Source: Candidatus Bipolaricaulota bacterium (GTDB lineage Bacteria > Bipolaricaulota > Bipolaricaulia > UBA7950 > UBA9294). From it: a stretch of 64,000 nucleotides of DNA. The stretch's first letter is position 1. Each line of letters begins with the position of its first letter. The stretch covers positions 62,001-126,000 of the forward strand of contig JANQGM010000040.1 in assembly GCA_028277345.1 (NCBI GenBank), read 5' to 3'. Positions 2,655 through 16,727 of the stretch are shown here, in pieces. Both the position numbers and the translations under genes were made by a program. The notes below the pieces were generated by a model that was given only the letters and a program-made list of their open reading frames with translations, searched no databases and was not told the origin of the DNA.

Positions 2655-3506
2655 CTATTCACCCGCCTTCTGTGCCATCCGCTGAAGGCACCGCCGGACG
2701 CCTGCTTTAGCCAAGATCCGGCGATAAGCGCCGCTTGCCCGGACATCGTCCCGAGCCGGGATGGATTCTGAGGCGACAGCCGCCGCCTTCTCGATGTCGC
2801 TCGCTGTCAGCGACGTTCCGGCAATCGCCGCCTCGACATCCGGTGAGCGCCGCGCGATATCGGGCGTTCCGCCGAGCACCACGCGAACGTTCGCGCACCC
2901 GTCATCCGACAGGGACATGCGGCAAGCACAATTCAGCATGCCCACATCAAATCCGGTTCGCACGAACTTCTCGAAGTCGATGTACGTTCGTTCTTCGAGG
3001 CGTGGGAGGCTAACCTCGGAGATGATGACTCGATCCATCGTGCCTCGGGATTCAAGCAGCGTCTCAAGCGCGGCTTCCTCGGGATGCCCGGAATACCGCC
3101 GAACCTGGGCATCCAAAGCCAGTAACAGCGTGATTACATCCGACCAGGGATGCGTGCTGGCCAGCGCGCCCCCAAGGGTGGCAGCGTTTCGCAACAGCGG
3201 CGAGGCCACTTGACGAAGCATGGTTACGAGAATCCCGCCTCCATAGGCTTGTGCCTGAGGGGACTCCAAGAGCTCCGTCAGGGTCACTCCCGCCCCAATC
3301 ACCAGGCCACCACCGTCGCGCGATTCAACCGACGTGCTCAGGAGGTGGCTGAGATCGATGAGTGTCGCCACCTCGGGCGGCGCGAACAACCCCACATCCA
3401 CGGCGCCTCCCACAAGTTTGGCCGTTTTCCCTTCCTCAGACAGCAACCTCCAAGCATCCTCCAAGCTCGCGGGGCGCTGATACGTTTTTATGTTTGACAC
3501 GGTCAC
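2655..3506 (-). CDS. Molybdopterin dehydrogenase FAD-binding subunit
   Basis: KLVGGAVDVGLF...LRNAATLGGALASTHPWSD and a C-terminal CO_deh_flav_C-like SAYRRIL region; between adenine deaminase and the small subunit. Confidence 0.93.
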   Translation of the reverse strand: MTVSNIKTYQRPASLEDAWRLLSEEGKTAKLVGGAVDVGLFAPPEVATLIDLSHLLSTSVESRDGGGLVIGAGVTLTELLESPQAQAYGGGILVTMLRQVASPLLRNAATLGGALASTHPWSDVITLLLALDAQVRRYSGHPEEAALETLLESRGTMDRVIISEVSLPRLEERTYIDFEKFVRTGFDVGMLNCACRMSLSDDGCANVRVVLGGTPDIARRSPDVEAAIAGTSLTASDIEKAAAVASESIPARDDVRASGAYRRILAKAGVRRCLQRMAQKAGE

Positions 3507-5326
3507 CTCTCTTCATTGGCCGGATTATCGTCATCCTCGAGCAATGGAACAATCTCAAACGTACGAACATCCACCAAACCTAAGTCCGTCAACCGCAGTT
3601 CTGGAATCACGGGAAGCGCCAGGAACAAGAACGACATCAGGGCATCGTCCACGCGGCATCCCAGAGCGCGCAATCCGGTCTGAAGCGCGTCCATCTCCAC
3701 GACCAAGTCTTCGATAGAAGCTTCGCTCATCAGCCCGGCGATCGGCAGGGGAATCTCGACCGTCTCGCCGCTTCCGCTGACCAAACAGAGTCCTCCCGCC
3801 ATGCGAACGACGCGATTGGCCGCCTCGGCCATCGAAGTTCGTTCCGTTCCCATCACAAGGAGATTGTGGCTGTCATGCGCAACCGTCGAGGCCAGCCCAT
3901 AGGGCTGCGTAATCCCATACCCGCGCACCAGGCCTTTTCCCATCCGAGCCGATCCCGTGTGCCGCTCGATGACGGCCAAGTAATTGATGTCGGAATCGTT
4001 CGGACGCTCGATTCGCCCATCCCGCACCGGCAGCGTTTGCCAGGTCATGCGCGTCAGCACCTGCGTCTCGACAATCTCGATCACGCGACAGCGTGCCTCG
4101 GAGTGATTCGATGGACCGGGAATGCAAAACTCGTCAGCTGTCAACGTTCGTGGAATGCAGACGCTGTTTCTTGCCATCGCCGGATACGCGAACGGCTGAC
4201 GCTCGGCCTTCGACACACCCAACTCCACAACCGTCTCTCCCGCCGCAATCACGTGATCGATGGACAAGGTGTTTAAGTCCGACACCACCAGCACATCCGC
4301 AAAACGTCCCGGTCCGATGCTTCCCACATCCTTCTCAACACCGAAATGCTCCGCAACGTTCAAGGTCGCCATTCGAATCGCGGCTAGGGGTTCAATGCCC
4401 TCTGCCATCGCGAGCCGAACGACATCATCGATGTGTCCTTTTCGAAGCAGCGTGTCGGGATGACGATCATCCGTGCATAGAAGCACCCGACGTGTATCCA
4501 GTCCCGCATCCAACAGCGCGCGCACCTGGGTCGCAACATTGTGTTCGGCGGACCCTTGACGGAGAATGGCCGCCATGCCTTGACGCACGCGAGCAATCAC
4601 GTCCTCAGCGCGCGTGCCTTCATGACAGTCCGACGGCCCACCGGCCACATAGGCATGAAAGGGCACACCCAAATCCGGAGATGCGTAGTGTCCGCCAACG
4701 GTACGGCGATGCTTGAGGGCTTCTGCAATCTCGGCATGCAATGCATCGTCGCCTGCGGCCACTCCAGGATAGTTCATCACCTCGCCCAATCCGATCACAC
4801 CGTCCCAAACAATGGCTTCGGCGACATCGGAAGGGCCGATCGACGCGCCCGTGGTTTCCAATCCCGGCGCGGCGGGCACACATGAGGGGATTTGAATGAA
4901 CAGCTGCATCAGCGTGTGCTTGGATTCGTCGAGCATCAAGCGAACGCCGTCCAATCCGAGGACATTGGCAATCTCATGCGGGTCGATGAAGGCGCCGGTT
5001 GTTCCATGGCGAAGCGCCGACGCCGCGAATTCGCGCACGACAAGCATTGAAGATTCCACGTGCACGTGCGCATCAAGGAGGCCGGGGACAAGGTAGTTAC
5101 CCTCGGCATCGAGAACCTGAGTTTCGGGGCCGACCAAATCGGGCCGATCGGGGCCGCAGTAGGCGATGCGGCTTCCCAGGATGGCGATGCACGTTTCGTC
5201 TAGGATTTCACCGGAATGGACATTGACCCAGCGTCCATTGCGAATCAGCAGATCCGCAGGCTTTCGTCCGGCGGCCACAGCGACCAGGTCTCGGGTAACG
5301 GCATAAAGAGGTTTTCGTTTCGGCAT
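3503..5326 (-). CDS. ade: Adenine deaminase
   Basis: ADLLIRNGRWVNVHSGEI...LVPGLLDAHVHVESSML...GTTGAFIDPHEIANVLG; full-length AdeC-like. Start placed at MPKRKPLYAV (5326), downstream of a hairpin; the ORF track extends to 5368. Confidence 0.93.
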   Translation of the reverse strand: MPKRKPLYAVTRDLVAVAAGRKPADLLIRNGRWVNVHSGEILDETCIAILGSRIAYCGPDRPDLVGPETQVLDAEGNYLVPGLLDAHVHVESSMLVVREFAASALRHGTTGAFIDPHEIANVLGLDGVRLMLDESKHTLMQLFIQIPSCVPAAPGLETTGASIGPSDVAEAIVWDGVIGLGEVMNYPGVAAGDDALHAEIAEALKHRRTVGGHYASPDLGVPFHAYVAGGPSDCHEGTRAEDVIARVRQGMAAILRQGSAEHNVATQVRALLDAGLDTRRVLLCTDDRHPDTLLRKGHIDDVVRLAMAEGIEPLAAIRMATLNVAEHFGVEKDVGSIGPGRFADVLVVSDLNTLSIDHVIAAGETVVELGVSKAERQPFAYPAMARNSVCIPRTLTADEFCIPGPSNHSEARCRVIEIVETQVLTRMTWQTLPVRDGRIERPNDSDINYLAVIERHTGSARMGKGLVRGYGITQPYGLASTVAHDSHNLLVMGTERTSMAEAANRVVRMAGGLCLVSGSGETVEIPLPIAGLMSEASIEDLVVEMDALQTGLRALGCRVDDALMSFLFLALPVIPELRLTDLGLVDVRTFEIVPLLEDDDNPANEER

Positions 5327-5377
5327 GGGATAGAGTGTTGCGGCCATTCGCTTAGCGAATGGCCGCAACCACAGATG

Positions 5378-6544
5378 CTATTCGGGCTCGTTCGGCCATG
5401 GGCCGACGATGTTTTCGAACGCCCACTCCATGGTGATCAGAGAGTCGACGGACAACCAGAAACCAGCGCGCACGACCTCATTTCCATTGCGGTCCGAGAT
5501 CGGCCCCTGGAACGGATCGAACGTCACACCAGGATCGGAGAACTGTGCCAACCGGATGTTGTGAAGGTCATAGGCGGAGATCATCCCAAAAGTGGGATCA
5601 TCGATCATGTACGCCTTCAAGTCATCGATGTACAGCGGATTGATGGGAACACCAGGCGCGGCTTCCGGGAAGACGGCACCCTGGGTCATCAGCCACCAAT
5701 AGTCGATATGCTGCAGGTTGCTCGTGGTGTACGTGCCTTCGTAGATCTTCGTGAGGAAATCAACGTAGATCTTGCCCCAGTCGATGGCCTGCCCGGAAAC
5801 GACATAGTCCGGTGCGAACTGATACATCTGCGAGCCATAATGCCCGAAGCTCAGCATCTCGTTTTCAGCCGCCACCTGGACAACGGTGGGAGAGTCTTCG
5901 GTAAACGCGAAGACATCGCATCCATCCGCGATCAACGCATTCGTCGCTTCGGTCGCTGCCCCCGGATCGAACCACGAGTAAATCCACTTGACGTGCACTT
6001 CAGCATCCGGATTGGCTGCCTTGACGCCCAAGGCGTAGGCGTTCATGTGGCGCTTGACTTCCGGAATTGGGAACGCGCCGACATAGGCGACCTTATTCGT
6101 TTCGGTAAGTGCCCCAGCGATCAAACCGTTGAGATAGTAGACCTGATAAAAGTCACCCATGTAGGACATCATATTGGGCGCGCGTTTGAATCCAGAGGCG
6201 TGTCCAAAGAAGACGTCCGGATAGCGCAGAGCGGCGTCCAGCGTTCCATCCATGAACCCGAAGCTCGTGGTGAGAATGACGTTGCAGCCGTGCAATGCAA
6301 TCAAGTCGTCGATCACGGGCCCTTCTTGTCCCTCAGCGACGGATTCGACAATCACTGTGCTGGCAAATGGAAGCGCCTCGACGTCCTCACGTCCTTCATT
6401 GTGCGAATAGGTCCAACCAAAGTCACCGATCGGGCCGACGTAGATGAACCCGACCTTCAGATCTTCGCCGGGTTCGTAGGCCGCAACAACGCCCCCAACA
6501 AGTGCTAGGATGAGCATTGCCGCAATCACAACTCGTTTATTCAC
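5378..6544 (-). CDS. BMP-family ABC transporter substrate-binding protein (purine/nucleoside type)
   Basis: GTG start preceded by AGGAGG; signal peptide VNKRVVIAAMLILALVGGVVAA; VGFIYVGPIGDFGWTYSHNEGRE typical of the BMP family. Confidence 0.92.
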   Translation of the reverse strand: MNKRVVIAAMLILALVGGVVAAYEPGEDLKVGFIYVGPIGDFGWTYSHNEGREDVEALPFASTVIVESVAEGQEGPVIDDLIALHGCNVILTTSFGFMDGTLDAALRYPDVFFGHASGFKRAPNMMSYMGDFYQVYYLNGLIAGALTETNKVAYVGAFPIPEVKRHMNAYALGVKAANPDAEVHVKWIYSWFDPGAATEATNALIADGCDVFAFTEDSPTVVQVAAENEMLSFGHYGSQMYQFAPDYVVSGQAIDWGKIYVDFLTKIYEGTYTTSNLQHIDYWWLMTQGAVFPEAAPGVPINPLYIDDLKAYMIDDPTFGMISAYDLHNIRLAQFSDPGVTFDPFQGPISDRNGNEVVRAGFWLSVDSLITMEWAFENIVGPWPNEPE

Positions 6545-6631
6545 TGCTACCTCCTTGGACCGGTACAACCTTTTGTCAATCCTCATCAGCTGGAAAGGGA
6601 AAATGTCGTATGTCTGAGCACCACCTCCTCG

Positions 6632-7561
6632 TTAGTCCTCCCCGCGAGTGTACGGCAACGTCAGCGCGGACGGTGCCCCCATCCGCTTCTGCAACGTCCC
6701 TCGCGAAACAATGATCAACACCAAAATCGCCAGCAAATAGGGCATGGCCTTGAGCAATTCTGGCGGAAGCCACGCCTGAAGCCGGAAAGACAGCACACGC
6801 ATCGCGGCAAAGAAGAAAGCGCCAACCAGTCCGTAGAGTGGATTCCAGAACGCGAAGATCGTAAGCGCAATCACAATCCAACCCAGTCCCGCCGTCATGC
6901 CCCCGGACCACGCTGTGCGATAGGCAACCGACCAATAGGCACCAGCAAACCCAGCCAGCACGCCCCCAACCATGACACAGAGATAACGCACGAGCGGCAC
7001 GCGAATCCCCAGAGAATCCGCCGTCGCCGGATCCTCACCCACAGCCCGAATGCTTATCCCCATTCGGGTTTTGAACAAGACGAGCCAGCCCAACACAGCA
7101 ATTCCGATCGCGATGTACGTCATCGGGCTCTGGTTCTCAAACAGCGCAGGCCCAAGAACTGGGATACTCGACAGTACGGGAACATCGATCCGACCAAGCT
7201 TGCTCCATAACGGGAAACCTTCATAGGCTCTGCCGATCACTCCGGACAGCCCCGTTCCCAGCATCGTGAGCGCAAGCCCGGAGACAACCTGATTCGCGCG
7301 TAGCGTGATGCTCGCAAAAGCATGAACTAATGAGAACGCGCCACCGACAAGCCCGGCGATCAGTATCCCAAGCCACGGATTTCCCGACCCCATCGAGATC
7401 GCAAACCCTGTTAGCGCGCCCATCAGCATCATGCCCTCGACACCGAGATTCAGCACACCGGAACGCTCCGCATAGATTTCCCCGACCGTTGCCAACAGCA
7501 GAGGCGTGCCAAATGCGAGCGCCCGGCTGATGGTCTCAATAACCCAAGACTCCCAGCTCAT
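6632..7561 (-). CDS. ABC transporter permease (NupQ-like)
   Basis: Multi-TM protein with AERSGVLNLGVEGMMLMGA, a BMP-type permease signature. Confidence 0.92.
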   Translation of the reverse strand: MSWESWVIETISRALAFGTPLLLATVGEIYAERSGVLNLGVEGMMLMGALTGFAISMGSGNPWLGILIAGLVGGAFSLVHAFASITLRANQVVSGLALTMLGTGLSGVIGRAYEGFPLWSKLGRIDVPVLSSIPVLGPALFENQSPMTYIAIGIAVLGWLVLFKTRMGISIRAVGEDPATADSLGIRVPLVRYLCVMVGGVLAGFAGAYWSVAYRTAWSGGMTAGLGWIVIALTIFAFWNPLYGLVGAFFFAAMRVLSFRLQAWLPPELLKAMPYLLAILVLIIVSRGTLQKRMGAPSALTLPYTRGED

Positions 7562-8646
7562 GCCACCTCCCGCCTGGCCCCAATGCGGACCCGATACCGG
7601 ATGAACAATTCACTGCCGATCAGCATGAAGAGAATCACGCCGTTGAACACGTCCACAAGCTCGAACGGCAACCCAAGCGAGACCTTGATCACATCGCCGC
7701 CCCGCATGATGACGCCAAACAGAAACGAGGTTAGGATGGCTGCAAGCGGATTTCTCCGTGCAAGCCAGGCCACGATGATGGCGGTATACCCATATCCCAG
7801 AGAGATCTGCTCAGGACTGAGAAGCATGTGATGGATACCCGCTACCTCACCAACGCCGGCTACTCCGGCCAGTCCACCGGAGATCATCATGGCGAGCAAC
7901 GTGATCTTGGTCTGACTAATGCCGGAGTACTTGGCAGCATCCGGATTTTCTCCAACCACTCGAATCTCAAACCCCACGCGAGTTCGTTTGACAAGCACGA
8001 AGAGCAGGATGGCTGCGAAGACACCAATGGCGAGTGTGGGCCAGTGAATGCGTGTGCCCGCGATCACCGGAAGACTCGCAGCTGCGGAGAATCTGTCCGT
8101 ATAGGCGAATCCGCGCTGGGTGGGCCCCTTCCACGGACCATACACCAGCCACTCGACCAGTGCGATCGCTACATAGTTCAATAGCAACGTCGTAATAACG
8201 TCATTGATGCCCAACTTGACCTTCAAGTAGGCCGGCCCCATTCCCCAGAGTGCACCCGCCGCGAACCCTGCGATGAACATGGCCGGAATCATCAGAATCT
8301 CAGGAATTCCGGAGAAGAGCGCCACTCCGGTCGCGGCCACCGTGCCCACAAGCAGCTGACCTTCTGCACCGATGTTCCAGAACAACGCACGGAAGGCGAC
8401 CGTGAGTCCAACGCCAATCACGAGCAGCGGAATCATCCGACGAATCGTCTCGGTGATCCCCAACTTGCTCCCCAAGGCGCCGCGAATGATGTCTCCATAG
8501 GCACGAATCGGCGAAACCCCAAAAAGCCGGAAGAGCAATCCTGCCAGCAGTAGGGCTAGAACAATCGCACTGATCGAGATCGCGAAGATCGTCCACGGAG
8601 AAATCGACGATCGCCGCTCCACCTGGATCCAAGAAGGCATCCTCAT
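7558..8646 (-). CDS. ABC transporter permease (NupP-like)
   Basis: Multi-TM protein with FWNIGAEGQLLVGTVAATGVAL; 4-bp overlap with the neighbouring permease. Confidence 0.92.
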   Translation of the reverse strand: MRMPSWIQVERRSSISPWTIFAISISAIVLALLLAGLLFRLFGVSPIRAYGDIIRGALGSKLGITETIRRMIPLLVIGVGLTVAFRALFWNIGAEGQLLVGTVAATGVALFSGIPEILMIPAMFIAGFAAGALWGMGPAYLKVKLGINDVITTLLLNYVAIALVEWLVYGPWKGPTQRGFAYTDRFSAAASLPVIAGTRIHWPTLAIGVFAAILLFVLVKRTRVGFEIRVVGENPDAAKYSGISQTKITLLAMMISGGLAGVAGVGEVAGIHHMLLSPEQISLGYGYTAIIVAWLARRNPLAAILTSFLFGVIMRGGDVIKVSLGLPFELVDVFNGVILFMLIGSELFIRYRVRIGARREVA

Positions 8647-10202
8647 ACGGACACCTCCTGTTGTCGAGTCCCCGCCATCATCAATCCGAGTGTTTCGAGC
8701 TCGGCATCCTTCGCATCGACAATGCCCATGACCTCTCCTTCGTAGATCACGAGGACCCGATCAGAAAGCTGCAAGATTTCGTCCAGGTCTTCGGAGATCA
8801 ACAGGATGCCAGCCCCCCGCGCGCGCTGATCAAGCAGAACACGCCGAACCTGCTCGGTCGCCCCGACGTCCAAACCATAGGTGGGATGAGCAGCCACGAC
8901 GAGTCCCGGACATCCGCACAATTCGCGAGCCAGGACCAAGCGCTGGATGTTCCCGCCCGACAGGTTTTTTGCCGCTGTGCCATCGTGTGGCGCCGAAATC
9001 TCGTACTCCTTCATCGCCTGGCACGCATTCTCGTATGCGGCCTTTTCATCGAGAATCGACCACTTACAGAAATCGGGCGTTCGATAGGATTTTAGGATCA
9101 GATTCTCGCGGATACTCATCGTCGGGACTGTTCCCACGCGGATCCGTTCCGTCGGCACATGCGCGACCCCGAGATCCGCGATCTCCCGCGCAGAGCAATT
9201 CGTAAGATCCTGCCTCTGAAGCACCGCGCTGCCGCCTGTCGCTCGGCGCAGCCCGGTGAGAACCTCGGACAGCTCATGCTGTCCGTTTCCAGAGACGCCT
9301 GCGATCCCGAGAATCTCTCCGGAGTAGACATCGAACGACATGCCCCGGAGTGCGGGAAGTCCGCGATCGTTATTCGCGTGGAGGTTCTCAACCCGTAGAA
9401 CCCTGTCCCCGAGTTCTGCGGGCGGTTTCTCAACACGAAAGACGACTTCACGCCCCACCATAAGCCGTGCCAGCTCCTCTTTGGACGTCTCTGCCGTGTT
9501 CACGGTTGCAACGGCCTTTCCTTTGCGAAGCACCGTCACCCGGTGGCTGGCTTCCATGACCTCATCCAGCTTGTGCGTGATGAAAATGACGGTGAGCCCG
9601 TCGCTGACCAGCGTCCGAAGCGTGCCGAAGAGCGCGTCGACCTCCTGCGGGGTCAAGACACTGGTCGGCTCATCCATGATGAGAATATCGGCGTCGCGAT
9701 AGAGCGCCTTGAGAATCTCGACGCGTTGTTCTTGCCCCACGGTGAGTTGCCAGACTTTGGTCGAGGGATCGACCTGCAATCCGTACTCATCCGCCAGCTT
9801 CCGGATCTTGGCCCGGGTGCGCTTGAAGCGAAGAAACGGGCCCGTCCCTTCGGACAGGCCCAGGACGATATTCTCCTCCACGGACAACGTCGGAACGAGG
9901 TGAAAGTGCTGATGGACCATGCCGATCCGATGAGCCAATGCCGCCTTGGGCGATCCCAGCCGCACCGGCTTTCCGTGCAATAGAATTTCACCCTCATCGG
10001 GCTGATACAGCCCGTACAGGATCCGCATGAGCGTCGTCTTTCCCGCTCCGTTTTCCCCGAGCAAACAGTGAATTTCACCACGGCGTACGTCAAGGTTGAC
10101 CCCGTCGTTGGCGACAACGCCGGGAAACCGTTTCACGATGCCTTTGAGTCGAACAGCCAATGGAACGCCAGATTCGGCAGTCATTCCCCCCCGTTTCTCC
10201 AT
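8643..10202 (-). CDS. ABC transporter ATP-binding protein, two nucleotide-binding domains (NupO-like)
   Basis: GENGAGKTTLMRILYG, LTVGQEQRVEILKALYRDADILIMDEPTSVLTPQE, second domain GVSGNGQHELSEVL / LSGGNIQRLVLARE. A more likely start is MTAESGVP at ~10184, just after a GGGGGGGA tract. Confidence 0.93.
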   Translation of the reverse strand: MEKRGGMTAESGVPLAVRLKGIVKRFPGVVANDGVNLDVRRGEIHCLLGENGAGKTTLMRILYGLYQPDEGEILLHGKPVRLGSPKAALAHRIGMVHQHFHLVPTLSVEENIVLGLSEGTGPFLRFKRTRAKIRKLADEYGLQVDPSTKVWQLTVGQEQRVEILKALYRDADILIMDEPTSVLTPQEVDALFGTLRTLVSDGLTVIFITHKLDEVMEASHRVTVLRKGKAVATVNTAETSKEELARLMVGREVVFRVEKPPAELGDRVLRVENLHANNDRGLPALRGMSFDVYSGEILGIAGVSGNGQHELSEVLTGLRRATGGSAVLQRQDLTNCSAREIADLGVAHVPTERIRVGTVPTMSIRENLILKSYRTPDFCKWSILDEKAAYENACQAMKEYEISAPHDGTAAKNLSGGNIQRLVLARELCGCPGLVVAAHPTYGLDVGATEQVRRVLLDQRARGAGILLISEDLDEILQLSDRVLVIYEGEVMGIVDAKDAELETLGLMMAGTRQQEVSV

Positions 10203-10297
10203 CCCGACTTCATCCTATGATGAAGCCGTTTTGGTAACAATGGGACGATTGTCCTAGAAACTCCCAAATGCCAATGAGCAGTGATGACACGTCACCC

Positions 10298-10336
10298 ATT
10301 CTATAAGTTGTCAGACCGTCCGACAACTGGTATCCT
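10298..10336. promoter_or_regulatory. Overlapping divergent sigma70-type promoters with 23-bp palindromic operator (10306-10328)
   Basis: Plus: TTGTCA (10308-10313)-17-TATCCT (10331-10336). Minus: TTGTCG (10326-10321)-17-TAGAAT (10303-10298). Palindrome AGTTGTCAGACCGTCCGACAACT spans both -35 boxes. Confidence 0.65.
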
Positions 10337-10383
10337 TCCACTCGTCTAGAAATGAGGTTGATCCTGATGGGAATGGAGGTTTC

Positions 10384-11709
10384 ATGACTCTTAGAATTGA
10401 CAATCTCAGGGTGTGGGACGGCCGGAACGCCACCTTTGACGACGTTTCGTTGGTCATCGATGGGGATCGGATTGCTCAAATCGCTCCCCACTCCCGTACA
10501 CCTGCGACGCCGGCGGACGAGGTTCTCGATGGACGCGGCAAGCTCGCCCTTCCGGGCCTTGTCAATGCGCATACCCACTTGTACAGCAGTCTGGCGCGGG
10601 GAATGGCGGTCAGCCCCTTTGATCCCGGCTCCTTCACCCAGATCCTCGAACAGTTGTGGTGGAAACTCGACAAGGCGCTTGATCCGGAATCCGTTCGGAC
10701 CAGCGCATTGATCGGAGCCATGGAGGCGGCCCGATGCGGAGTCACGACGTTGATCGATCATCACGCCAGCCCCAACGCCATCCCCGATTCGCTCGATGCC
10801 TTGAAGGAAACGGTCACTGAGGGCGTCGGATTGCGAGGCGTCTTTTGCTACGAGCTCTCCGACCGCGATGGTCTCGATCGCCGCGATCAGGGCATTCGCG
10901 AGAATGTTCGCTTCCTGTCCCAGCCGACCTCCAGTCACATCGGCGCTCAATTCGGCATCCATGCCTCGTTTACCGTCTCCGATGAAACGCTTGAACGGGT
11001 TGCCGACTCCATTCCCGAGGATGCGGGGGTTCACATCCACGTTGCTGAGGGACCGGAGGACGAGGTTCAGTGCGAGGCCGCGCATGGCGAGCGGATCGTC
11101 CATCGGCTCGATCGTTTCGGGCTGCTAAAGCCTCAGTCCATTCTCGCCCATTGCTTGCACATCAATGACGATGAGCGAGCGCTTCTTGCTGAACGCGACG
11201 CCATCGTCGTTCACAATCCGCGATCGAACATGAACAACGCCGTCGGGCTGTTTGACATGGACGCGTTCCTGGATGCCAACGTCCTCACCGGGCTCGGCAC
11301 GGACGGCCTGGGGGCCAACATGCTGGCCGAGTTGTTCACGGCGGGCATCCTTCAGAAACACAGCCGAGGCAACCCCTTGGCCGGCGGTTTCGATGCTTTG
11401 TACCGCCTCTTGTTCGTGAACAATCCCGCCATTGCCTCCCGCTTCCTGAATGCCGATCTCGGAGGACTCGCCGAGGGATCGCCGGCGGATGTGATCCTGT
11501 TGGACTATGCTCCACCGACTCCCTTGGACGCTGGGAATGCGCTGGGACATCTGCTGTTTGGCACCGCCGTTCATTCCCTGTGCGTGACTGATTCCTTCGT
11601 CGGCGGACGTCCCATTCTGCGAAACCGAGCGTTTGTTGATTTGGATGAAGAGGCGGTCTATGCGCGCGCACGCGAGTGCGCGGCCTCTCTGTGGAAGAGA
11701 CTAGGATAG
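10384..11709 (+). CDS. ssnA: SsnA-like putative aminohydrolase (amidohydrolase superfamily)
   Basis: LPGLVNAHTHLYSSLARGM...CGVTTLIDHHASPNAI...GLRGVFCYELSDRDG; followed directly by a YgfK homologue, as in E. coli. Confidence 0.88.
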   Translation: MTLRIDNLRVWDGRNATFDDVSLVIDGDRIAQIAPHSRTPATPADEVLDGRGKLALPGLVNAHTHLYSSLARGMAVSPFDPGSFTQILEQLWWKLDKALDPESVRTSALIGAMEAARCGVTTLIDHHASPNAIPDSLDALKETVTEGVGLRGVFCYELSDRDGLDRRDQGIRENVRFLSQPTSSHIGAQFGIHASFTVSDETLERVADSIPEDAGVHIHVAEGPEDEVQCEAAHGERIVHRLDRFGLLKPQSILAHCLHINDDERALLAERDAIVVHNPRSNMNNAVGLFDMDAFLDANVLTGLGTDGLGANMLAELFTAGILQKHSRGNPLAGGFDALYRLLFVNNPAIASRFLNADLGGLAEGSPADVILLDYAPPTPLDAGNALGHLLFGTAVHSLCVTDSFVGGRPILRNRAFVDLDEEAVYARARECAASLWKRLG

Positions 11710-11719
11710 GAAGGTAGTC

Positions 11720-14700
11720 ATGAGCGAACACATGCGTCCCATCCCCTTCGATGTCCTCCTGGACTGGATTCTCGGCGAATACGCGTCGCACCGTTCCATC
11801 TTCGGAGTTCCCGACTCGCTGTTCTTCCGTCCGGATTCCCATGACGGAATGGCGACCGAGCTGTTCGGAGATCGTTTGGCCACCCCCATCGGGCCCGCTG
11901 CCGGTCCCCACACTCAATTGACCCAGAATATCCTCAGTTCGTGGCTGACCGGCGGACGTTTCATCGAACTCAAGACCGTTCAGATCATGGACGAACTGGA
12001 GATTCCGCGCCCATGCATCGATCTGGCGGATGAGGGCTACAACGTGGAGTGGTCGCAGGAGCTCCGCCTCCAGGAGTCCGTCCTGGAGTACGTCAAGGCT
12101 TGGGTGCTCGTCCGCGTTCTTCGGCATCTGCTCAAGCTTGAGGACACGCCCTTCGGCACGATCTTCAACATGAGCGTGGGATACAACCTCGAAGGCATTC
12201 TCAGCCCGCCGATGCAATCGTTTATGGCGCGGTTGGAGAACGCGGCCGACGACCTGATCCCCTTCCGGAAGGCATTGCAAACGTCCTATCCCCAGTTTGC
12301 CGATCTGGAGATTCCGGACCGAATCGTCAATTCGGTCACGCTCTCCACCATGCACGGGTGTCCGCCCGATGAGATCGAGCGCATCGCCCGCTACATGATC
12401 GAAGAGCGGGGACTGCACACCACGGTGAAGCTGAATCCCACGTTGCTCGGCAAGGAGACGGTGCTTCGGACGTTGCACGACACCCTCGGCTACACCGAAA
12501 TCAGCATTCCGGATTCCGTGTTTGAACAGGATCTTGCCTATGATCGCGCCCTGTCTTTGATCCGCTCCTTGCAGGCATCCGCGAACGCAAAGGGCGTGGC
12601 CTTCGGCGTCAAGCTGTCGAATACGCTGGCCATGTCCAACCACCGACAGCTGCTTCCTGGGGACGAAATGTACATGTCGGGCCGCGCGCTGTATCCGCTG
12701 ACCGTCCAACTCTTTCAGCAGCTGCGCTCGGACATCGGATCCGATCTCTACGTCTCCTATTCCGCGGGAGCGGATGCCGTCAACCTTCCTCACCTGCTCG
12801 CGGCGGGCGCGCTGCCCGTCACGGTCGCATCGGACATCCTCAAGCCGGGAGGCTATGGGCGTTTCGAGCAGTACATCGCATCGATTCGCAACGCGCTCGC
12901 CTCGGACGGCACATCGTCCCTGCGGGACCTTGCCGCGCATCCGGACGAAGCCCTGAACCGCCTCGTCGAGGACGGCACGTCATCGCGCCGCTACAAGAAG
13001 GCCTATCACCCCGCCGACCTGCCCAAGGTCGACACGCCGCTGGAGATGTACGATTGCATCGAGGCGCCTTGCATGGCTCAGTGCGCCGTGTGCCAAGATG
13101 TCCCCGACTATGCCCATTGGATTCGAACCGGACAAATCGAACGCGCCTTGTCCGCCATCCTGCATCGGAACCCGTTGCCTGCGTGCACCGGCTATGTCTG
13201 TACGAACCTGTGCCAGACGCGCTGCACGCGCGCCAACTACGATGAACCGGTCGCCATACGTCGGCTCAAACGGTATGCCGTCGAAGCCGGCCGCCTATCG
13301 CTTGACCCCGCTCCAAGGACCTCGCATCGCGCGGCCGTTGTCGGAAGCGGGCCCGCGGGCTTGGCCGCCGCCTTTTACCTCGGACTCAGCGGCATCGACG
13401 TCACCGTTTTCGAGGCCAAGGACCGGCCCGGAGGCATGTTGGCCATCGCCCCCCATTTCCGTTTGCCCGAAGACGTTGTCGATGCGGACATCGATCGTAT
13501 TCGCGGCTTGGGCGTAACCATCCGGTGCAACCACCGCGTGACGGCCTCGCCCGAGGAGCTGTTGAACGAGGGCTACGATGCCGTGTACATCGGATGTGGC
13601 TTCTCTCGAGATGCCGGTCTTCCGATTGACGGGATCGAGACCGAGGGCGTGTGGGGCGCACTCGACCTCCTCGATCGCGTCGCCCATGGCGATGGACATG
13701 CGCTTCCTCTTGGCGAGCACGTCGTCGTCATCGGAGGCGGAAATACGGCCATGGACGCCGCTCGCACGGCACAACGGCTGACAGGCAACGCTTCGACGGT
13801 CGTGTACCGGCGCACCCAAGCTGAGATGCCGGCCGAGGAAGAAGAGCTCCACGATCTGCTTCTCGAGGGAAACCGGATTGAGGAATTAGCGATTCCTCAG
13901 CGCATCATCGCAGAGGACGGCCGCGTCAGCGGATTGGAATGCCTGCGTGCCCGCTTGGGAGACCCCGACGACAGCGGACGGCGGCGGCCCGTTCCGATCG
14001 AAGGCTCCACGTTTGTCCTCCCCGCTTCAGCGGTGATTCAAGCTGTGGGACAGGTGGCGAACACGGAATTTCTCACGTCATCCCGCCTGGTCACGCGATC
14101 GTCGGACGGCGGCATTGAGGTCGAAGCCTCGGGCCGCACACAGGTCGACAACGTTTACGCTGGCGGCGACATCGCCCGGGGTCCAGCCATCATTATTGCC
14201 GCATGTGCGGACGGGCGGCGAGCGGCCCAAGCGATGTGCAAGCAACTCAACATCGATTTCCGCGCTCCCGCGCTGCCGCCGTTCACCTTGGATGATGTCA
14301 AGCGTAGCGACCTAAAGGCCTCGCGCGTTCGGAAGATCGCCCAACACCAGCCCGACTTCCTCGATCCCCAGCTCAGAAAGGGGTTCGATCTGGTCGAGAA
14401 AACGTACTCACCCGACCGAGCCGTCGCCGAAGCCGATCGCTGCCTCCAGTGTCAACTTCTCTGCGACAAGTGCGTCGACGTCTGCCCCAATCGGGCCAAT
14501 GTCAGCCTGCGGGTGACGCCGTTCACATGCACCGTCCCTCGTTATGCCATCGGAAACGGCCAGTTGGTCGAACGCGGGACAGTCGCGGTCGGCATCCGCC
14601 AGGCACAGCAGATCCTTCACATCGACGAACTGTGCAACGAATGCGGAAATTGCGCCACCTTCTGCGTGCACGAGGGACGACCGTACCGCGATAAGCCTCG

Positions 14701-15019
14701 GCTCTTCTTGCGCAACGAGGGATTTGAGGCCGAAGACGAGAATGCCTATTGGATGAAGGGCGAGTCCTTGTCCAGCCGTGTCGATGGAGAAACCACAACG
14801 CTAACGCGTGTTCCTCAGGGTGGATGGGTCTACACCACGCCCTACCTTGAGCTCCAGCTCGACGACGATTTCGCCGTCATGCATGCGACCGTGTCGGCGT
14901 CCGCACAAGGAGAGGTCTCCCTTCAACCGATCATCGAAATGGCGTGCCTCTACAAGGCGATTCGCGCCGACGGCGACTATCTGCCAAACTCTCTGCACGT
15001 CGAAAGGGGAGATGTCTGA
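11720..15019 (+). CDS. ygfK: YgfK-like putative selenate reductase / Fe-S flavoprotein
   Basis: N-term MRPIPFDVLLDWI...SIFGVP...ATPIGPAAGPHTQLTQNILSSWLTGGRFIELKTVQI recalled as near-identical in pattern to E. coli YgfK; GltD-like GSGPAGLAAAFYLG and GGGNTAMDAARTA; C-terminal Cys clusters CLQCQLLCDKCVDVCPNR / CNECGNCATFC. Confidence 0.92.
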   Translation: MSEHMRPIPFDVLLDWILGEYASHRSIFGVPDSLFFRPDSHDGMATELFGDRLATPIGPAAGPHTQLTQNILSSWLTGGRFIELKTVQIMDELEIPRPCIDLADEGYNVEWSQELRLQESVLEYVKAWVLVRVLRHLLKLEDTPFGTIFNMSVGYNLEGILSPPMQSFMARLENAADDLIPFRKALQTSYPQFADLEIPDRIVNSVTLSTMHGCPPDEIERIARYMIEERGLHTTVKLNPTLLGKETVLRTLHDTLGYTEISIPDSVFEQDLAYDRALSLIRSLQASANAKGVAFGVKLSNTLAMSNHRQLLPGDEMYMSGRALYPLTVQLFQQLRSDIGSDLYVSYSAGADAVNLPHLLAAGALPVTVASDILKPGGYGRFEQYIASIRNALASDGTSSLRDLAAHPDEALNRLVEDGTSSRRYKKAYHPADLPKVDTPLEMYDCIEAPCMAQCAVCQDVPDYAHWIRTGQIERALSAILHRNPLPACTGYVCTNLCQTRCTRANYDEPVAIRRLKRYAVEAGRLSLDPAPRTSHRAAVVGSGPAGLAAAFYLGLSGIDVTVFEAKDRPGGMLAIAPHFRLPEDVVDADIDRIRGLGVTIRCNHRVTASPEELLNEGYDAVYIGCGFSRDAGLPIDGIETEGVWGALDLLDRVAHGDGHALPLGEHVVVIGGGNTAMDAARTAQRLTGNASTVVYRRTQAEMPAEEEELHDLLLEGNRIEELAIPQRIIAEDGRVSGLECLRARLGDPDDSGRRRPVPIEGSTFVLPASAVIQAVGQVANTEFLTSSRLVTRSSDGGIEVEASGRTQVDNVYAGGDIARGPAIIIAACADGRRAAQAMCKQLNIDFRAPALPPFTLDDVKRSDLKASRVRKIAQHQPDFLDPQLRKGFDLVEKTYSPDRAVAEADRCLQCQLLCDKCVDVCPNRANVSLRVTPFTCTVPRYAIGNGQLVERGTVAVGIRQAQQILHIDELCNECGNCATFCVHEGRPYRDKPRLFLRNEGFEAEDENAYWMKGESLSSRVDGETTTLTRVPQGGWVYTTPYLELQLDDDFAVMHATVSASAQGEVSLQPIIEMACLYKAIRADGDYLPNSLHVERGDV

Positions 15020-16260
15020 TGGGAACGATTCGCGGTCTTCATTGCGTCACGTGTGGCGCGGCCTACGGCCCGAATGACGTGGAGTACACGTGCCCCAGCT
15101 GTGGACCACGCCGGGGAACGCTTGAGGTTCGATACGACTACGAGACCTTGAAGGCGTCGCTGGACCGCGACGCGTTTCAGCGCTCGGGGCCACGATCTCA
15201 ATGGCGGTATTTGCCGCTGCTGCCTGTGGAATCCGACGCGTATATTCAACCGCTTCGCGTCGGGTGGACGCCCCTTTACAACGTCTCCGATGTGGCGGCT
15301 CGATTGGGGCTTTCCGCGCTCTACATCAAGGACGATGGGCAGAATCCCACGGCATCCTACAAAGATCGCGCGAGCTCCGTCGTCGTGATCAAGGCGCAAG
15401 AAAAGAACAAGCCCGTGGTCACCTGCGCCTCGACGGGGAACGCCGCCAGTTCATTGGCAGGATTCGCCGCCTCGACATCGCTGGAGACGGTGATCTTCGT
15501 GCCCGAAACCGCGCCCGAAGCCAAGGTTGCGCAACTGTTGGTGTACGGTGCCCGCGTCTTCCTCGTCAAGGGATCGTACGATGTGGCCTATGACCTCGCC
15601 GCCGAAGCCGCCGAGGCCTTCGGGTGGTACAACCGATCGGCCGCCGTCAATCCGTTTATGGTCGAAGGCAAGAAGACGGGCGCTCTTGAACTCGCCGAGC
15701 AGCTCAACTGGCAAGTGCCCGACGTTGTCTTCGTCGGCGTCGGCGACGGCTCTGTCATCAGCGGTATCTGCAAGGGCTTTGCGGAGTTGAAGATGCTCGG
15801 CTGGATCGATCGAATCCCTGAGGTTGTCGGCGTACAGGCGGAGGGCTCCGCTCCCATCGCTGTGGCCTTCGCCGCCTACGACGGGAAGGATGTCTGGTTC
15901 GAAGACATCGAAGCCGCCACTGTCGCGGACAGTATCTGCGTTGGCAAGCCGCGAGACATCATCAAGGCAGTGAAATACGTGCACACGCACGGCGGCCGGT
16001 ATGTGACCGTGTCGGATGAGGCCATTCTGGACGCCATCATCCGCCTGGCTCGCGAAACCGGCGTGTTCGCTGAGCCGGCGGGAGCCGCCGCCTATGCGGG
16101 GCTGCTGGCGTGCGCGGCAGCCGGCGAACTTGAAGGAGCGTCGGCGGGCGTCTTCATCACAGGAAACGGCCTCAAGGATGTGTCCTCGGCGAGACAGGTC
16201 GTCGGCACCCCCACCATCGTTGAACCGTCTCTGCGCGCCATTGAGGAGCACCTCAAATGA
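15019..16260 (+). CDS. Threonine synthase-like PLP-dependent enzyme with N-terminal zinc ribbon
   Basis: CVTCGAAYGPNDVEYTCPSC; DDGQNPTASYKDRASSVVV (PLP Lys); ASTGNAASSLAGFAA. TGATG overlap with ygfK. Confidence 0.85.
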   Translation: MGTIRGLHCVTCGAAYGPNDVEYTCPSCGPRRGTLEVRYDYETLKASLDRDAFQRSGPRSQWRYLPLLPVESDAYIQPLRVGWTPLYNVSDVAARLGLSALYIKDDGQNPTASYKDRASSVVVIKAQEKNKPVVTCASTGNAASSLAGFAASTSLETVIFVPETAPEAKVAQLLVYGARVFLVKGSYDVAYDLAAEAAEAFGWYNRSAAVNPFMVEGKKTGALELAEQLNWQVPDVVFVGVGDGSVISGICKGFAELKMLGWIDRIPEVVGVQAEGSAPIAVAFAAYDGKDVWFEDIEAATVADSICVGKPRDIIKAVKYVHTHGGRYVTVSDEAILDAIIRLARETGVFAEPAGAAAYAGLLACAAAGELEGASAGVFITGNGLKDVSSARQVVGTPTIVEPSLRAIEEHLK

Positions 16261-16727
16261 AAATCGCCTGCACCATTAACGGAAAACGCGTTGAAATGGA
16301 TATCGACCCAAGGCTTCGGCTCCTGGACATGCTGCGCGAGACCCTTCACCTGACCGGAACGAAGGAAGGCTGCGGAGAGGGTGAATGCGGCGCCTGCACG
16401 GTCTTGATGGATGGCGCTGCCGTGAACTCCTGTTTGGTGCCTGCGCCTCAAGCGGACGGAACCGAAATCCTGACCATCGAAGGACTTGCGGAGGACGGAA
16501 CGCTCCACCCCATCCAGCAAGCCTATGTCGACACCGGCGGCGTTCAGTGCGGGTTCTGCACTCCCGGATTCATCATGGCGACCTATGCACTGCTGCTCGA
16601 ATCGCCCGACCCAACCGAGGAGGAGATCCTTTCCGGACTCGAGGGGAATCTATGCCGCTGCACAGGGTACTCCAAGATCGTCGAGGCCGTTCACCTGGCC
16701 GCCGAAAGGATGAGGAAGGTCGCATGA
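16257..16727 (+). CDS. Second [2Fe-2S] small subunit of a molybdenum hydroxylase
   Basis: GCGEGECGACTVLMDG...CGFCTPGFIM...GNLCRCTGYSKIV. Confidence 0.94.
   Translation: MKIACTINGKRVEMDIDPRLRLLDMLRETLHLTGTKEGCGEGECGACTVLMDGAAVNSCLVPAPQADGTEILTIEGLAEDGTLHPIQQAYVDTGGVQCGFCTPGFIMATYALLLESPDPTEEEILSGLEGNLCRCTGYSKIVEAVHLAAERMRKVA

Follow-up and report, generated by a model that had tools for sequence, protein, structure and literature searches.

A shared operator over overlapping divergent promoters is a classical design, known from tetA/tetR and bioO. In Escherichia coli, bioA and bioBFCD are transcribed from two overlapping divergent promoters, both covered by the single palindromic operator bioO, which is bound by BirA. 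For tetR/tetA of Tn10, overlapping divergent promoters under shared operator control are described in a passage of PMC11686294 that cites Bertrand et al. 1983. In sites of the FadR subfamily of GntR regulators, TKGT and ACMA boxes are arranged so that 3 nt separate GT from AC; an extra box often lies 7–12 nt away from the centre, and where a divergon has a single site, that site usually governs both operons (PMC4494728). Here we describe a candidate purine-related example of such a switch. It lies in a 64-kb stretch of DNA (the window, analysed as a whole), which is part of a 2.76-Mb, 40-contig assembly (G000), a Candidatus Bipolaricaulota MAG whose relatives are Candidatus Bipolaricaulota bins.

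A 181-bp intergenic region of the window holds the 23-bp imperfect palindrome AGTTGTCAGACCGTCCGACAACT (10306-10328), exactly as the initial annotation had given it in sequence and coordinates, and under the settings used it was the only inverted repeat found in 10150-10450. Its arms (10306-10316 and 10318-10328) are 11 nt each, pair at 10 of 11 positions (91% complementary) and flank a 1-nt loop. We propose it as an operator, assigned to no strand, with the core TTGTC-N9-GACAA, on the basis of the inverted-repeat search, an alignment and orthologous sites. The window contains five palindromes of the same geometry and strength, against 0.9 expected, and shuffling the intergenic region 5000 times gave an equally strong one 48 times (~1%). 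Chance should yield roughly one palindrome this strong in 64 kb, so its strength is by itself modest evidence; position and conservation are what lift this palindrome above chance. An inverted repeat might instead function as an RNA hairpin, in a terminator or as part of a riboswitch. We regard this as exceedingly improbable: the palindrome lies upstream of both predicted starts, has a 1-nt centre and is followed by no T-run, and Rfam returned no family match at the palindrome.

The direct neighbours of the intergenic region are genes for an ABC transporter ATPase and an ssnA-type aminohydrolase, in line with the earlier observation that no regulator gene adjoins the palindrome. On the minus strand, the ATPase gene (8643-10202) leads an arm that continues with ABC permease 2 (7558-8646), ABC permease 1 (6632-7561), a BMP/PnrA-family substrate-binding protein (5378-6586) and adenine deaminase (3503-5368; TIGR01178 above cut-off). 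The best solved relatives of the binding protein are 3s99 and 6pi5/6pi6/6pii, which we take to bind purines or purine-like ligands. On the plus strand, ssnA (10384-11709), preceded by the Shine-Dalgarno sequence GGAGG, is followed by a YgfK-type oxidoreductase (11720-15019) and a xanthine-dehydrogenase-type 2Fe-2S subunit (XdhC-like; 16257-16727); further genes of this arm encode a threonine-synthase-like enzyme and a MocA-like protein, along with a reading frame resembling the xdh FAD subunit. Because of this gene content and the relatives of the binding protein, the locus looks like purine uptake and salvage (BMP transporter and adenine deaminase) facing purine catabolism (ssnA-ygfK-xdh), the purine locus on both sides that had been proposed at the outset.

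The ATPase reading frame probably starts at an ATG seven codons downstream of 10202, after GGGGGGG and then ATGACTGCC; the orthologue in the related genome G004 begins at the same downstream ATG (MASKES). Its minus-strand leader carries a hairpin, CTTCATCCTATGATGAAG (10208-10225), just upstream of the Shine-Dalgarno sequence. In the window this leader folds better than its shuffles (z -3.2), G004 has a hairpin at the same place with other stem bases, and the leader of G002 shows no excess stability.

Scanning 10150-10450 with the promoter consensus returned exactly two sigma-70-like promoters, against an average of 0.4 in shuffled sequence. They are the divergent pair with 17-bp spacers that the initial annotation had read, and these 301 bp contain no other promoter-like site. 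The predicted ssnA promoter, on the plus strand, comprises the -35 hexamer TTGTCA (10308-10313) and the -10 hexamer TATCCT (10331-10336), 17 bp on and preceded by TG; that of the transporter, on the minus strand, comprises TTGTCG (10321-10326) and, again across 17 bp, TAGAAT (10298-10303). The -35 and -10 elements of these two outward-facing promoters interleave. A spacer of 17 bp is also found at the full-motif ssnA sites of relatives described below. We considered a MerR-type promoter with the palindrome in its spacer and rejected it, since that architecture needs 19-20 bp.

We compared 23 genomes of this family in the region that precedes ssnA. The full motif TTGTCNGRCNGYCNGAC, in some cases with one substitution, is present in 10 of them, spread over four genera, so that the expectation of conservation in relatives held. 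At all 10 sites the left, TTGTC-like arm sits at the -35 position and a TATCCT-like -10 follows exactly 17 bp on. Seven further genomes have a half-like motif (in genus g3, for instance, TTGTCAGACAG close behind the -10); the remaining six have neither form upstream of ssnA. When the window was aligned with G004, G002 and G005 (two genera), GTTGTCAG..GTCCGACAA together with TATCCT formed an invariant block, and the intergenic spacer outside the palindrome and the plus-strand -10 was strongly diverged. Within the promoter spacer, the positions GYCNGACA, which a promoter does not need, are conserved. Separately, ssnA in G024 (L014) is divergent from the apparent start of a LacI-type regulator gene and is accompanied by a GGGGTAACGTTTCCCGAAATCGTTACCCC palindrome, and the same palindrome lies at a contig start in G009 (L019); in genus g6, judging from these sequences, another operator may have taken the ssnA spacer.

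The same comparison bears on whether both promoters belong to the operator. In genus g13 the gene opposite ssnA is not the ABC ATPase, and the palindrome is still found at ssnA. Since the palindrome follows ssnA despite a different opposite gene, it is primarily an ssnA operator. G002 and G004 retain the minus-strand -10, TAGAAT, and G005 lacks it; because this hexamer is kept only inside the genus, the double lock is a local derivative, documented there only. These observations would also suit a palindrome that regulates the ssnA side alone, with the transporter using another promoter and the minus-strand -35 and -10 arising as by-products of symmetry, the more so as a second site elsewhere in the genome (below) has no -10 on its reverse side. 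We nevertheless consider this unlikely, given that TAGAAT stands at 17 bp in all three readable genomes of the genus and that 10150-10450 offers the transporter no other minus-strand promoter-like site. Of the initial reading, the two overlapping promoters are supported, and the proposed locking of both arms is a local arrangement.

A genome-wide scan found the strict pattern TTGTCNGACNGTCNGACAA exactly once in the assembly. With the centre made degenerate as in the relatives (GRC/GYC), two exact sites were obtained, both intergenic. The second, TTGTCAGGCTGCCAGACAGAAGATACACT (G000:C31:161007), has the same architecture, its arm containing a -35 that is followed after 17 bp by a -10, and precedes an Opp/Nik-type permease operon that is divergent from a second adenine deaminase gene; a 5'-deoxyadenosine-deaminase-like gene and a nucleoside phosphorylase gene lie further along. 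The arrangement recurs in G005, a genome of another genus, where the permease is 90% identical; a search of other genomes from the window's own genus did not recover it. Some thirty more places in the genome match with one or two mismatches. Those examined are coding or lack the promoter geometry: besides the two exact sites, none is intergenic, contains a -35 and also has a -10 matching at 4/6 or more. Matches in other genomes (L127-L129) were rejected as operators because they lie in coding sequence, as was a weak match (G000:C18:109067) ~190 bp upstream of another BMP transporter gene, which showed no convincing promoter fit.

With this second copy at another purine-linked promoter, it is very unlikely that the palindrome is no operator but a chance inverted repeat on a constrained promoter. 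Its frequency in sequence of this length would allow such an origin, and TTGTC and TATCCT alone could persist as promoter elements; against this, four genera share conserved spacer positions to the left and right of the centre, with compensating-looking changes at the centre itself (GAC.GTC, GGC.GCC).

The guess of a GntR/FadR-type operator gained support from the published consensus (PMC4494728) and from the best upstream match, which lies at a FadR-type GntR gene. The segment 10308-10326 contains two plus-strand units that follow the TKGT/ACMA pattern, TTGT-CAG-AC and GT-CCG-ACAA, each with one good and one degenerate half. The left unit, TTGTCAGACCG (TTGT-N3-AC; 10308-10318), is centred at 10313 and overlaps the right unit, CCGTCCGACAA (GT-N3-ACAA; 10316-10326), centred 8 bp away at 10321. 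The palindrome is better understood as overlapping FadR-type units, or as a unit accompanied by an additional half-site, than as the operator of a single dimer. The protein that binds there is most likely a GntR-type repressor.

A matrix derived from the ssnA-type and Opp-type sites was run over the upstream regions of GntR genes taken from this genome and from operator-bearing relatives, so that the candidates considered were GntR-family genes. There are six FCD matches in G000, and a FadR-type regulator (GntR plus FCD) is thus present. One such gene, GntR-A (G000:C29:3814-4521; GntR and FCD Pfam domains), neighbours a dihydropyrimidinase/hydantoinase-type gene, carbamate kinase, carbamoyltransferases and an xdh large subunit. 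Several of its orthologues have an upstream match scoring 9.9-10.2, others a weaker one, and the GntR genes scanned other than GntR-A score at most 3.9. The match lies over the -10 of GntR-A's own promoter, within sequence conserved in most of the family; it agrees at only ~11 of 14 consensus positions and overlaps an AT-rich -10. It is absent in two genomes where GntR-A closely follows another gene. Two other features were noted around this gene: a TGCTATCATACAGCTTGACA-like sequence ~30-60 bp upstream (L200-L219), conserved in most of the family and well beyond the -10, and several short inverted repeats with GAATTC/GATGCGTTCG-like words between GntR-A and carbamate kinase (G000:C29; L125 4515-4890).

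Many family genomes with GntR-A have no full palindrome, and no GntR-A was found in G022, where the palindrome is present. Co-occurrence with the palindrome was accordingly rejected as proof of identity, being non-discriminating; as GntR-A is widespread, also where the palindrome is missing, the repressor's identity rests on the motif match. From that match, GntR-A is the likeliest repressor among the GntR genes scanned, and a candidate for action in trans.

The operator could be just as described and yet be bound by another protein, either GntR-B or a regulator of another family, a possible but on balance rather unlikely alternative to which the restriction of our scan to GntR-family genes lends some weight. 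GntR-B is a FadR-type gene ahead of an xdh-type gene. In G000, G004 and G005 its own promoter bears the strong palindrome ATCTGTCAGGTGTCTGACAGAT (TGTC-N8-GACA), which shares the outer boxes of the window's operator at a similar -35 position, and G016 has a like palindrome at the GntR-B promoter. These outer boxes are, however, 8 rather than 9 bp apart, which accounts for the matrix score of at most 3.9 and makes GntR-B a less likely, still possible binder. It was also not seen in several genomes with the ssnA operator, although these drafts are incomplete. The conserved GntR-B palindrome, resembling ATCTGTCAG-N4-CTGACAGAT (L118 1450-1473, L166, L168, L175), looks like a cousin of the window's operator, and in G000 the gene appears to be divided between two contig ends, those of C6 and C25.

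Our preferred reading, to which we give an even chance, is that a FadR-subfamily GntR repressor sensing purine status locks both promoters, with GntR-A as the likeliest such repressor. The TTGTC arms would double as the -35 hexamers of both outward-facing sigma-70 promoters, so a repressor on 10306-10328 would cover both hexamers and much of both spacers, and polymerase would be recruited to neither the transporter/adenine deaminase arm nor the ssnA-ygfK-xdh arm. An effector would release the repressor and free both arms. Since the footprint of either promoter takes in the -35 and -10 of its partner, the freed promoters would presumably admit one polymerase at a time. GntR-A would act in trans, and its own promoter would be among its targets. 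Repression, mutual exclusion, the identity of the repressor and its effector are the steps that we infer in this scheme. More tentatively, and at somewhat less than an even chance, we suggest a previously undescribed FadR-subfamily purine repressor of Bipolaricaulota: its half-sites would serve as -35 hexamers, its composite operator would control uptake, deamination and oxidation from two overlapping promoters and a second locus, and it would regulate itself via a variant site over its own -10.

The yge/ygf/xdh/ssnA purine-catabolism cluster of E. coli resembles this locus in bringing together ssnA, ygfK and xdh subunits, and, as further likenesses to that cluster, a hydantoinase, a carbamate kinase and a distant YgeW-like gene are encoded elsewhere in this genome. 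We know of no operator with a candidate repressor of this kind from the E. coli cluster. The bioO operator, with one palindrome over two overlapping divergent promoters as here, is much longer and is bound by a repressor of another family. Tn10 tetR/tetA, likewise with overlapping divergent promoters under shared operator control, differs in its TetR-family repressor, its two operators and a regulator encoded in one arm. FadR-subfamily divergons (PMC4494728) are alike in their TKGT-N3-ACMA units, in single or double sites controlling both operons, in extra half-sites 7-12 nt from the centre and in an FCD-domain regulator, here a candidate. Against those divergons, no regulator gene adjoins the present site, its units overlap, with centres 8 bp apart, its targets are purine genes, and its phylum is absent from that study's table of analysed taxa (PMC4494728). 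Our literature search found no paper on a purine GntR regulon in Bipolaricaulota. For a phylum that consists here almost entirely of metagenome bins, the analysis supplies a regulator and operator, open to experimental test, for the salvage and catabolism of purines. It also offers a worked example of how an operator first tied to the ssnA promoter appears to have come to lock a second, divergent promoter within one genus. Set beside the known systems, the novelty lies in the set of purine targets, in the phylum and in the naming of a candidate repressor.
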